DNA from: Rhizophagus irregularis
Lineage: Eukaryota; Glomeromycota; Glomeromycetes; Glomerales; Glomeraceae
NCBI RefSeq assembly: GCF_026210795.1
Contig: NC_089440.1
Span: 1,116,001-1,180,000, forward strand
Reading direction: 5' to 3'
Length of the DNA: 64,000 bases
Below the pieces are notes generated by a model, which saw only the letters and a program-made list of their open reading frames with translations, ran no database searches and had not been told where the DNA came from. Shown one piece after another: positions 40,445-52,588 of this stretch; within the stretch, counting starts at the first letter, position 1; every line of letters starts with the position of its first letter. Made by a program: the position numbers and the translations under genes.

Positions 40445-41370
40445 TTATGATTGTCCTTTCTTGGGAGCATACTTACCAGCGTAACCACCACCTTGACTTT
40501 TTCCAATATTATACAACTTTGGATTTCCAATTGCGGATTCGACTGCAGAACAAAGTCGCAACCAGGGAGCATTATACGATTTCAAATTAGCGAAAAATAA
40601 ATAATCATGTCCTAATTTCCGATTCAACCATAAGACAAAAATAGGTAATTAACACATCATTTCCTTTTAATTATTATATATCACAATACTTAACTTTCTC
40701 TCCCTACGACAGGTAAAGCAAGTCTCGCCGATTCGCGAATTCTTCTTCGAATACGAGCCCTTACCACAGCCAGTTTAGAAACGTTTTTTTTAGACACCAC
40801 AATTTGTAATCGAAAATTTTTAATTGGTTCTTTGGTTTTCTTTGCTTTAGTAACCGTTAAAAAATTTTTTTTAAAAAAAAATAATCCGGGACAATTTGAT
40901 TGGAAAAATGAAAAGAAAATTTACTAAAATACGCGTCATTTTCACGCCATTTCCGTGCGGCCAATTTAAAATAATCAGTATAAGTGATTCCAGTTATATT
41001 GTTTTTTTTATCTGTGATCATCTTCTGGATCGTATCAGTGTCTATCGAATGCGTCTAAAAATCAATAAAATTAATTAAAAAATTATAAGAAGTTATTTGG
41101 GTAAGATGGTTTTTTCGTACATCTTTCTTTGGCAGCAGAGGTGGTAGGTTTAGGTTCCTTTCTAAAAATTGGTAGAGGATAATGTAATAAGTAATTATTA
41201 TTTTACTTTGTTTTCGTACCTTTTCAATTACCAGCTTTTTTCATATTAAATGCCTTTTTTTTATTTTCGTTTGTTATAATTTCATTTGTATCGGAAGCAA
41301 AACACCTTTGTATTTGAATTATACGAAAATTATCAAATGGTATTCTCTTTAGTATTTTAACATTATACAT
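40445..41370 (-). CDS. Mitochondrial RnpA-like protein (bacterial RNase P protein fold)
   Basis: Five exons join in phase: 41370-41232, 41161-41121, 41054-40925, 40844-40695, 40611-40445, about 208 aa. The N-terminus (MYNVKILKRIPFDNFRIIQI, then QRCFAS) is basic and amphipathic with no acidic residue until D13, like a mitochondrial targeting peptide. From about residue 108 it matches the order of the bacterial RNase P protein RnpA: a beta strand FRLQIVVSKKNVSKLAVV, the RNA-binding helix RARIRRRIRESARLAL (RnpA 'RNR' box like), then HDYLFFANLKSYNAPWL and a closing helix LRLCSAVESAI. A short Gly/Lys tail (GGGYAGKYAPKKGQS) is extra. RnpA binds the RNase P RNA in bacteria. Here the role could be mitochondrial RNase P or a mitoribosomal or RNA-binding role. 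The exon 4/5 junction (GTTAAG donor) is the weakest. Divergent from the EI24-like gene with 243 bp between. Confidence 0.72.
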
Positions 41371-41613
41371 AATTATTGCGCATGTACGGAAATTATTTTG
41401 AAATTTCCGAAAAGAAAACTTCACCGGATTTTCAACTGCGGGCGCAGTAAATATATTCGGAATAACAAATTCGGGATTGTTGTACTTAAAAAATTACTGT
41501 ACATTGAAAATCCCGATGACTTGTACTTAAAACGTTTTCAAAGGGCTTTATGATATAGTGAAATAGTTTCTGTTGGATATGTATAATAAAATAGTAAATT
41601 CTCTTTTCAAGCG

Positions 41614-42809
41614 ATGCCATACTATATACAATCAAAACTTGGGATTAAAGAAACTACAAAATTGTGCGTTCAATACTTTTGGTGTGGATTTAAAGATGCT
41701 TTTGCTTGGCCTTCAAGTCTGATCACTATATACGGGTATATACAGTTATTACGGATCTGCTTCGTTTTACCTTGTATTCAATAACAATATTTTTATTATT
41801 TGATAAAGGTCAGAAACGATCCGAAATCGCACACGAAATTGTTTTATTTTAAATGGACTTATCTTTTTAGGCAGCATATTTTTTTTTAACCACATTACAA
41901 TACCTACTTTACACTTCTTTTTTGGAAAAACTTTTTTTATCTCGTTAAACCAAAGAAACAACAGCGGCGATGTTATACATTCACCATTTCTAACAAATAT
42001 ATTAGATACTATTATAGCATTAACATATCAACTTTTTTGGGTATATCCGATTTTTCTACTTAGTTTCGTGTTAAACGCTGTATGGTATCAAGAAATAGCG
42101 GATCGTGCTTATCAACTACAATTCGGACAACCAGTAAATTCACATTTTACATATAATCGAATGCTTCGGCTTATGGCTGATGAAATATATCGAGCGATTT
42201 TATTTATGAATTATTTGGTTTTTGCTACAATAATACATATTATACCTTTTATTGGACCAATTATTTCTTTCATATCCTTTTGCTGGATCTACGCTTATTA
42301 TAGCTTTGAGTAAGTAACATTTAATATTCGAAGAAAAAATCGAAATATTATTAAATGACTTTAATATTTATACATAGATACAAATGGATAAATAAGGGGT
42401 GGAAGTTGGAAAAACGAATCGAATATTTTGAAGAAAGGTGGGCTTACTTTGCTGGATTCGGGTTCACTTTTACGGTGATAACATTTTTTGTTGATCAATT
42501 TTTAAGTGCAGGCGTATTTGCACTCTTTTTTCCACTTGTAAGTTTTATTTTTGATTTGCTTTTTTTTTTATTATTTTTCCGACATTTTTCTTAATTTATA
42601 AAATATAATTTTTTGGGCAAAAGTACATAATCATGGCTAACAATGCACTTCCAATGCCGAGACAAAATGAACGAACGCGATTTTCGTCATTCATTCCTTA
42701 TAGATTACCAGTGTTTTGGGTGGCAAGAAAATTTAACGATAAAATAATAACTAGTTTTACTGCTAGTAAATTATCACGAGAAAAAAAGAATAAAAACATT
42801 AATGAATAG
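41614..42809 (+). CDS. EI24-family (etoposide-induced 2.4) multi-pass membrane protein
   Basis: ER multi-pass membrane protein family linked in animals to autophagy and ER quality control. Four exons join in phase: 41614-41773, 41871-42309, 42378-42537, 42624-42809, about 314 aa. Family landmarks: GFKDAFAWPSS near the N-terminus; LFWVYPIFLLSFVLNAVWYQ followed by EIADRAY (the EI24 'NALWFQDIAD' block); a hydrophobic segment IIHIIPFIGPIISFISF; the signature SFEYKWINKGW; ERWAYFAGFGFTFTVITFF; and the last membrane segment FALFFPLYIIMANNALPMP. The C-terminal about 40 residues are basic and cytosolic-looking. The junction between exons 1 and 2 lies in poorly conserved sequence and is the least certain. 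Convergent with ARPC4, only 68 bp between stop codons. Confidence 0.88.
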
Positions 42810-42877: not shown

Positions 42878-43762
42878 TTAGTCAAACTACAATGATGAGA
42901 AAAAAAAGATAGTTTAGATTAGATTAATAATGATAAAGTGAATAAAACATTTCGAATTTTTTCTCTTACTTGAGATAAATATGATTCAGCAACTATACGA
43001 GCACGAGCATTTAAACTTAATTTCATTTCACTAATCTCTTTATCAACTTCTTCCATAAATTGAATAATAAAATCAACCAACTTGTGTTTGTACATTTGTT
43101 CCGTGTGAGAATTGGTAATTAAAAAGCTAATACTATATCCCTAAAAAAAAAAAAGTTTTTTTTTAAAAAAAAAAAGAAATCATGAAGAAATAAAGTTAAT
43201 CTTTTAATTTTTATTCTTACATCAATTGGCTTTCTTCTTAGAATTATGAAATTTTCTGCTCTAAGCATCATAAATCTAGTAAATTTCTTACATAGAATTG
43301 TTTCAATTTCATCGGCTTGCTTAATCCTGATACTAATACGAATTGAATTAACAGAAGGCTCTATCATAACTTTCTCATTTTCATTTCTACTAATTATTAA
43401 AGGATTCATTACTACTTCCGATGATGATCTATGAAGTAAAAAAAAAGTGAATTAGATTAACAAAAAAAATTTCTTATAACATATATTTTTATAAATACCT
43501 TGCTTCAACTTCGGGCTTATTATGCCTTTCTACAACTTGGGAAGAAAAATTTTCTAAACAAAGTGCAGCTGTCAAAGTAGATCTGACTGCTGCTAAATAT
43601 GGACGTAAAGTGTTCGACTACATATCGTAAATGACAAAAAAAGTTTTTGAATAAAAAATATAAATTTGACCATTCACAGTAGGTGGACTCAGGAAGAGTC
43701 ACAACTTCACATAAACATTCTGGAATTAAAAGCGATTCTAAATATCAAAAAAAACATACCAT
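42878..43762 (-). CDS. ARPC4: ARPC4, Arp2/3 complex 20-kDa subunit
   Basis: Core subunit of the Arp2/3 complex, which nucleates branched actin filaments; with ARPC2 it forms the scaffold. Five exons: 43762-43760 (ATG only), 43617-43499, 43428-43221, 43140-42970, 42886-42878 (FD and stop), 169 aa in total, against about 168 in animals. Conservation is near-continuous: [114 protein letters not shown]. The two extreme mini-exons are inferred from splice signals and from the known protein ends. The ATG at 43762 is directly followed by GTATGT. Confidence 0.96.
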
Positions 43763-50275: not shown

Positions 50276-52267
50276 TTAATCATCCTCATTATTATCTTTA
50301 CCAATTTTTTCAGTAATCCAACTTTTTAAACATAATAAGGCACGAGCTGTTTCTGGATTTAAACGATTTCGCACCTTAGAAATAGTTAAACCAGCAATAG
50401 AAAATGCTTGTTCACAGGATACTGAAGTTGCTTGAATAGTAAGGTGATCTTTAGCCATGGCTGAAAGAATTGGAAAATTTTTTTTATAAGAATTCCACCA
50501 TATTAAAGGATCACAATTATCATCTTGGAGCAAAGATAAATATCTTTCTAATTCATGATTACTTGAAACGGATTGTGTTATTGGACAAAATTTATCTATT
50601 AGGCTTTTTAAGTGAGCACAGGCATCAAGTCTATTAAACGTTTGTGATTGAGGTAATCTACATTGTTGTGCACTTGTGCTACATTTACAACATTATCATT
50701 ATTATTTTGAGCATAATTATTCATTTTTCTTTTAATAATTTCAATCGCTCTTGTATTTTCTTCTAATGTAAAAGTGGAGCATTTACAATATTGTTGTTAC
50801 GATTGTTGTATTATCAATGATCTCCCAATATTCATTTAATTTTTGAAGTATAGAATCTGCTAATAAATATTGTATCTGATTAACCGAAATTTCATATTGT
50901 AAATGTTGAATTAAAGTCTAAAAAGTCAGGCAGAGATCTCCAATTGTTGGATATATAGATGAAAAAAGTGTCAAAGTAGTAGAGTAAAACTGAAAGGTGA
51001 CAAAACAGATACAAGTTTCTAGTAATAAAAAAAAAATTTTTAAATAATTAATACTTATTTATTAATAATTACATTTAATCCAACTTATGTTTAAATTTTT
51101 CCAATCATTATTATCAAAATGAATATTTGTAAATTCATTTGAATGTTGTGCTATAAGTATATTTGCTTGAACTTTTATTTGAATATTTTTATTAATTATT
51201 AAAAATGTTGAATTCTAGCGTGTGTTAATATCAAGCTGTGGCAATAGAAATTCAATAGATTGAGACTCAAATATGTGCCATAAATCTTCTAAAAGTTTAT
51301 TAGAATTGCGAACCTTAATCATAAATTTTCTAACTTTGTCAACAGACGCATCATGTACCTGCAACCCATGTTGCACAACAAGATTGAGAATATGTACACC
51401 ACACCGAAAATGAGAAAAATTAATATTATTAAATGTATTTTTCAATTCATTTTTCATTTCTCTTCTACACACAAGCATTGCTGCGGCATTATCTGTTGTA
51501 ATTGCAAATGCTTTAGAGGATAGATTCAATTCTGATAATAAATTTGTTAAAGTTTGTGCCATATTTTTACCAGTGTGTGATTCGTGAAATGGTATAATAT
51601 CAAGTAAAAAATGTCTAAGTGTCCAATTATCATCAATATAATGACAGGTTACTCCAAAAAATGCAGTATGACTATTGTCAGACGTCCACATGTCAGTAGT
51701 TAAAGATATTCCACTTTTAATTTTTTCAATGTCATACTTTAATATTTTACGCCAATTTTCAAATCTATTAATTACATACTTTTTAATATATTTATGATTT
51801 GGTACACGATAACGTGGATCAAATTTTTTGATCATTTCAATGAAATAATCCTCCTCTATTACAGAAAATGGCTGCAAACTTGTTACTATCCAATCAATTA
51901 AATTTTTACTTTTTTCAAAATTTTCTTTACAACTATATGGATGTGTATGTTGAAAATTTAAGGTTGTTTGAGTAAATTTACGTTGGTATTCAGTTGGATG
52001 CTTCTTTTCTAAATGTTTCTTCAAAGTTCCAGTTGAAATAGAACTACTATATACAGTTGCACATATTCGACATTTTTGAGAGTCCTTTGTCCTGATAAAA
52101 AATTCATTTATCTCAGATGAAGATGATGAAGTTTTATTATTTCTAATTGGCCCTCCATTAGATTTTTGATTTCTGTCATCGGTAATGTCTATAACTGATT
52201 GATCACTAATATCACTAATAGCTGTATCATCAAAAGTATATTCACTAGACATTTTTGCAATTTTCAA
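50276..52267 (-). pseudogene. hAT transposase with BED zinc finger, broken
   Basis: Reads from M at 52267 (a second ATG follows six codons later). BED finger: CRICATVYSSSISTGTLKKH followed by LEKKHP. DDE-core regions: GISLTTDMWTSDNSHTAFFG, AITTDNAAAML, HFRCGVHILNLVVQHGL. The long frame ends at LPQLDINTR followed by TAG where the family has Trp (TRWNST), so a TGG-to-TAG change truncates it at 51215. Between about 50640 and 51210 the frame is scrambled. The C-terminal dimerisation domain is intact from about 50620 to 50276: ATSVSCEQAFSIAGLTISKV then RNRLNPETARALLCLKSW. As it stands it cannot make a full transposase. Confidence 0.88.
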
Positions 52268-52588
52268 AAAAAAGGGGTCAGGAAGAACGAAAATCGGAAA
52301 GTAGAAATTTAATTATTATTAACTCCTTGATTAACGTACCTTATATAGTTATATTGTAATTAAAAAAGTAAAAATTAAAGATTCTCTAATTATAAACTTA
52401 CAAAAATTCAAAGAATCCATCAGAAAGTTGGATAAAAAATAGGAAAGAAAGATTTATTATAGAGCTCCGAACTGACCCGAAATTTTTTGTATAAAAAATG
52501 CCAAAACATTTTTTTATTAAAAAAACAGTTCAGAGTTTTACTTTATTCAGTTAGGCTCTGATCATTTTTGATATCAATCATATATCAT

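Follow-up and report, generated by a model that had tools for sequence, protein, structure and literature searches.

A split nuclear gene for an RnpA-family protein in a fungus

Bacterial-type RnpA in eukaryotes

Nuclear genes for bacterial-type RnpA have been described in Ostreococcus and other prasinophytes, where the protein is proposed to be an organellar RNase P subunit (PMC4919922, PMC4264200, and PMC7050145, excerpts, citing Lai 2011). A diverged nuclear RnpA that is predicted to be mitochondrial is also described in Andalucia godoyi (PMC7050145, excerpt). Fungal mitochondrial RNase P is RNA-based, with Rpm2 as its protein in yeast (PMC4919922, excerpt), and fungi apparently lack PRORP (PMC10941002 and PMC9181182, excerpts). 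Several fungal mtDNAs, from a few zygomycetes, ascomycetes, and basidiomycetes, carry rnpB (PMC3942027; also PMC3630166, excerpts), and three Glomus and one Gigaspora mtDNA records are listed without it in the excerpt of PMC3630166. In the literature searched, which left most subscription papers outside its coverage, we found no report of RnpA in fungi. As far as this search extends, RnpA is new to fungi, and database entries may already carry the label because Pfam matches the protein that we describe here.

The gene lies within a 64-kb window, by which we mean the whole stretch of DNA that was analyzed. Its predicted product has the domain order of bacterial alpha-type RnpA, and the likeness extends to the VSKK strand, the Arg-rich helix 2, the length of the loop before the DY strand, and a C-terminal region with PW..L. 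The fungal protein differs from bacterial RnpA in being encoded by a split nuclear gene, in having roughly 70-75 extra N-terminal residues, in the replacement of the RNR Asn by Ala, and in a longer crossover loop and a Gly/Lys C-terminal tail. By description, not by sequence comparison, it resembles prasinophyte RnpA as a bacterial RnpA in a eukaryotic nucleus, the prasinophytes being green algae, and it likewise resembles the Andalucia protein as a diverged nuclear RnpA predicted for mitochondria. The mtDNA of Andalucia, a jakobid, has a bacterial-type P RNA (PMC7050145, excerpt). Like yeast Rpm2, the protein would be made from a nuclear gene and serve an RNA-based RNase P in fungal mitochondria (PMC4919922, excerpt).

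Gene model and family membership

The first-pass annotation had proposed five exons that join in phase to a product of 208 amino acids, and this structure was recovered on the minus strand (41370-40445), with introns of 70, 66, 80, and 83 bases that are all of the GT-AG type. The whole coding region (40445..41370) is marked by the in-phase joins and by a match to Pfam PF00825 (Ribonuclease_P). Exon 1 (41232..41370, minus), the end of which is uncertain, encodes a presequence-like N-terminus that is recognized by its basic residues and by an RCF/AS motif at residues 22-26; exon 2 (41121..41161, minus) has 41 bases, joins in phase, and is of uncertain frame. Exon 3 (40925..41054, minus) aligns to RnpA helix 1 (TYTDYFKLAA, with Tyr88 at the F13 position) and to the first strand. 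Exon 4 (40695..40844, minus) carries the VSKK strand, the crossover loop, and an RNR-type helix (R132-R140, RARIRRRIR), and is supported by kept contact residues and by the PF00825 match of its unspliced frame. Exon 5 (40445..40611, minus) encodes the HDYLFFA strand, a C-terminal helix region (PWLRLCSAVESAI), the Gly/Lys tail, and the stop, and tblastn matches extend across its join to exon 4.

Coding scores separate the two ends of the gene. Exons 3, 4, and 5 score positively in frame and lower in the two other frames, exon 5 having the top score among the five, and exon 3 is assigned on its positive in-frame score as well as on the alignment. Homology gives no support to exons 1 and 2, and both score negatively as coding sequence: exon 1 reaches -3.0, yet this is the best of its three frames, and exon 2 scores -1.7 in frame versus +4.5 in another frame (KEPKPTTSAAKER). 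The exon 4 acceptor (CGGTTACTAAAG) is without a pyrimidine tract. The locus has a low G+C content, and that of the window overall is 28.5%. Retention of intron 3 was rejected, as read-through from exon 3 runs into a stop.

Alternative splice models were enumerated from the ATG at 41370, with up to five GT-AG introns of 45-200 bases, which gave 35,605 models and 33,131 distinct products of at least 80 amino acids that were scored with two profiles, one built from 80 alphaproteobacterial RnpAs (the alpha profile) and one from 30 RnpAs of other bacteria (the non-alpha profile). With the alpha profile, the best 12 of the 33,131 products all contain the joins 40925/40844 and 40695/40611; the five-exon model scores 39.1 bits versus a top score of 40.2 and ranks 94th among 3039 hits, the models that outrank it being shorter at both ends. 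With the non-alpha profile, it scores 26.6 versus a top score of 30.5 bits and ranks 1111th among 2550, and the best 12 products end exon 4 at other sites. Exons 3-5 are thus well supported by the alpha profile and less so by the non-alpha profile. An alternative N-terminal model, in which exon 1 ends at 41306 and exon 3 starts at 41041, uses the better-scoring frame of exon 2; it leaves the RnpA domain unchanged, loses the RCF/AS motif, and reaches 39.9 bits in a version with a shortened C-terminus.

The identification of the product as RnpA, made in the first-pass annotation from the order of its motifs, held when the spliced product was compared with PF00825 (43.3 bits, E = 4.1e-11, curated cut-off 22.3). 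The match covers protein residues 95-181 and profile positions 20-105 of 109, spanning the exon 3/4 and exon 4/5 joins, and the unspliced stop-to-stop frame at 40690-40920, which contains exon 4 together with part of intron 3, matches the same family by itself (38 bits, E = 1.9e-9). The NCBIfam equivalog TIGR00188 was matched at E = 1.7e-7 with 31.4 bits, under its curated cut-off of 38.35. A chance match was rejected because, with the alpha profile, the reversed sequence scores 0.9 bits and the best of 200 shuffles scores 7.2 bits. The same profile gives 71.6 to Bacillus subtilis RnpA, so we regard the fungal protein as a diverged member of the family. From these results, we conclude that the locus is almost certainly a real RnpA-family gene.

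Other matches were set aside: in Pfam, the full product hits AAA_15 (E = 0.0046) and AsqO_C (E = 0.18) below cut-off, and the frame of exon 3 has a weak match to S6 (E = 0.15). A PDB sequence search with the product at E <= 10 found no ribosomal protein and missed the RnpA chains too. A profile search with seven rows does find RnpA chains; it adds nothing independent, since six of those rows are themselves RnpAs from bacteria.

Relationship to bacterial RnpA proteins

When the fungal RnpA domain was searched by tblastn against 299 Pseudomonadota genomes, 56 matched at E <= 0.01. The best match (8.4e-9, 49% identity over 53 residues) is in the Phenylobacterium genome (locus L004) that had been chosen as the center of the draw, and the second (2.1e-8, 48% identity) is in a drawn genome. 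Matches to alphaproteobacterial RnpAs run through the exon 4/5 join, one example being query residues 52-104 at 49% identity. By profile, 28 of the best 30 loci are alpha-type and two are non-alpha (L106 and L110). One of these two, L110, from a genome of 1.5 Mb, carries VSKKVSKKAVIRN, which is close to the fungal VSKKNVSKLAVVRA. None of the 215 stretches matched by the fungal domain in an earlier genome scan was confirmed, nor was any of five matching stretches in viral contigs confirmed as a relative.

Base rates were taken from a sample of 150 Pseudomonadota genomes that overlaps the tblastn draw; 147 have RnpA (30 taken as loci and 117 retrieved separately), and 146 of these sequences were readable, with 38 being alpha-type, 107 not, and 1 unsure. 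When this set was ranked by BLAST score against the fungal domain, alpha-type sequences took the first nine places, and an alpha and a non-alpha tied for the tenth; the alphas have a median score of 33.9 bits and the non-alphas one of 19.2 (Mann-Whitney p = 2e-13). Between the RNR helix and the DY strand, the fungal protein has a spacing of 18, a length shared by 28 of the 38 alphas (2 uncalled), 53 of the 80 named alphas (17 uncalled), and 1 of the 107 non-alphas (18 uncalled). The KK-to-Arg spacing, which reflects the crossover loop, is 10 in the fungal protein but 8 in every one of the 38 alphas; of the 107 non-alphas, 90 have a spacing of 8 or 9.

Phylogenetic analysis was less decided. 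A quick tree of 87 rows, four of which lie outside Pseudomonadota (two Bacillaceae, one Staphylococcus, and one Thermotoga, with no Mollicutes), places the fungal row inside the alphaproteobacteria on a branch of length 4.77, and its best identity to any row is 30% over 106 columns. When the alphas were held apart from the fungal row, the AU p value was 0.86, and this constrained tree surpassed the quick free tree by 21 log units. When the fungal row was tried on all 169 branches of a bacterial tree, 98.8% of the likelihood weight fell inside the alphas and 1.2% on the alpha stem, the best single placement being beside one alpha-type genome (L183). Among branches outside the alphas, the best trails by 10.97 log units, with an AU p value of 0.167 from too few replicates for that test. 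The alphaproteobacterial affinity that had been proposed from the sequence is thus borne out by BLAST ranks, profile scores, placement weight, and loop length, and the data lean toward alphaproteobacterial descent, short of proof, as the AU test rejects no non-alpha place.

Predicted function and genomic setting

Residues through which bacterial RnpA meets its RNA ligands were compared by alignment. In the Geobacillus holoenzyme, the P RNA backbone is bound by K53, K61, R62, and R65 of helix 2 and the leader phosphates are held by K49, K50, and R57, while F13 stacks on both P RNA and the leader and F17 on the leader (PMC13193133, preprint, excerpt). Six of these nine positions are identical in the fungal protein (K49, K50, K53, R57, R62, and R65 correspond to K122, K123, K127, R132, R137, and R140), two are conservative, and one is Ala. 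The assignment of K127 hinges on the alignment of the longer crossover loop, and 38 of the 49 aligned alphas have Asn there. The conservative changes are F13 to Y88 and K61 to R136; in the aligned set, Tyr occupies the first of these positions in 4 of 49 alphas and in 7 of 33 non-alphas, and Arg the second in 23 of 49 alphas. A92, at the F17 position, is the commonest alpha residue (30 of 49). The RNR motif reads R-A-R in the fungal protein, which keeps both Arg residues and has Ala133 in place of Asn. Among 226 bacterial sequences (146 plus 80, with one genome common to both sets), this position is Asn in 201, another letter in 13, Ala in none, and uncalled in 12. Judged by these residues, the evidence favors a protein that still binds a P RNA and the pre-tRNA leader through a changed interface.

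The first 24 amino acids include five Lys or Arg residues and one Asp or Glu, and an R-x-[FY]-[AS] motif lies at residue 22. The presequence-like character noted in the first-pass annotation stood as to these basic residues and the RCF/AS motif; it did not extend to the hydrophobic moment, which is unremarkable (reached by 381 of 2000 shuffles), and exons 1 and 2 are themselves uncertain. Mitochondrial import is plausible from such an N-terminus.

On balance, the gene probably encodes an RnpA-derived subunit of an RNA-based mitochondrial RNase P that was inherited from the mitochondrial ancestor, the import and the function being predicted. The gene would have come from the alphaproteobacterial ancestor of mitochondria and have been relocated to the nucleus, and the protein would be imported through its basic N-terminus with the processing-like RCF/AS motif. 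Its Arg-rich helix and helix 1 would bind a mitochondrial RNase P RNA, the 5' leader of pre-tRNA would be held in a cleft lined by VSKK and Arg132, and the affinity and cleavage rate of the ribozyme would thereby rise. In this fungus, such a protein would fill the role that Rpm2 has in yeast, and among fungi it would correspond to the nuclear RnpA described from Ostreococcus and Andalucia. Several points weigh against this reading: the Ala in the RNR motif, the longer crossover loop, the TIGR00188 score below cut-off, the long branch, and the AU tests, which reject no non-alpha place.

If the host is an arbuscular mycorrhizal fungus, as we suspect, a further point against it is that the mtDNAs given for that group in the excerpt of PMC3630166 lack rnpB. 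The window itself contains no match to P RNA or other Rfam families at gathering score, and no tRNA genes were found in it. A bolder proposal, which we offer tentatively, is that a working bacterial-type mitochondrial RNase P pairs the nuclear RnpA with a P RNA that has gone unrecognized by being very divergent or encoded outside the mtDNA, that the altered RNR motif and longer crossover loop are co-adapted to it, and that RnpA is the ancestral fungal subunit replaced by Rpm2 in yeasts. Survival of RnpA in a fungus would point to retention of the bacterial subunit into the evolution of fungi, would add to the scattered eukaryotes known to have RnpA, and would offer direct access to the 5' processing of mitochondrial tRNAs in a lineage apparently without PRORP. 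For a glomeromycete host, it would also imply a P RNA that is yet to be discovered.

Other origins and fates of the gene were weighed against the preferred reading of an inherited RNase P subunit. An RnpA descendant could have lost P RNA binding and been recruited to another mitochondrial task, such as binding mitoribosomal rRNA or another structured RNA. The Ala in the RNR motif, the longer crossover loop, and the long branch would fit this history, as would the Glomus and Gigaspora mtDNAs listed with no rnpB in the excerpt of PMC3630166, which count only if the host belongs to that group. Recruitment is nonetheless unlikely, given the same or similar residues at eight of nine contact positions and, at the ninth, the commonest alpha residue. 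In addition, no mitoribosomal PDB chain resembles the product at E <= 10, in a sequence search that missed RnpA chains too; the suggestion in the first-pass annotation that the RnpA fold might be reused, for example in the mitoribosome, found no support there, as that search returned neither a ribosomal protein nor an RnpA chain.

Inheritance with the mitochondrion also has to be set against later horizontal transfer from another bacterium, either an alphaproteobacterium or an endosymbiont. The trees fail to fix a place inside or outside the alphas, and the best single placement is beside one alpha-type genome (L183), both of which would allow such a transfer. We consider it distinctly unlikely, as the long branch, the four introns, and the low G+C content of the locus suggest long residence and no donor group stands out in a tree that had only four rows outside Pseudomonadota. 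A decayed or misjoined gene, of which the RnpA match is a relic, would account for the negative coding scores of exons 1 and 2, the preference of exon 2 for another frame, and the missing pyrimidine tract at the exon 4 acceptor. This is very improbable for a gene in which exons 3-5 code in frame with lower scores in the other two frames, the domain is unbroken in the spliced product, and the contact residues are largely kept.

The surroundings of the gene are eukaryotic, the window containing genes for ARPC4, a CHD1-type remodeller, NAP, a homeodomain protein, FNIP, and a DEAD helicase. Its gene content and the style of its introns make a fungal host likely, and the AT-rich DNA would suit a glomeromycete such as Rhizophagus. 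Bacterial contamination was rejected, as the RnpA domain is split by introns and set among eukaryotic genes; the nuclear location proposed at the outset is confirmed by the introns and by neighbors such as ARPC4, the CHD1-type remodeller, NAP, and the homeodomain gene. Beyond the 5' end of the RnpA gene, the next gene is a plus-strand member of the EI24 family, recognized by a Pfam match of the frame 41807-42313 and with a likely start codon at 41614; the ARPC4 gene follows on the minus strand (42919-43451). The short intergenic stretch at 41371-41613, between the RnpA gene and the likely EI24-family start, is a possible two-way promoter, and a short upstream ATG frame begins at 41384, between the two genes. 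Farther away, a BED zinc finger frame lies within 50276-52312 on the minus strand, together with another minus-strand frame that may be the C-terminal part of a hAT-type transposase.
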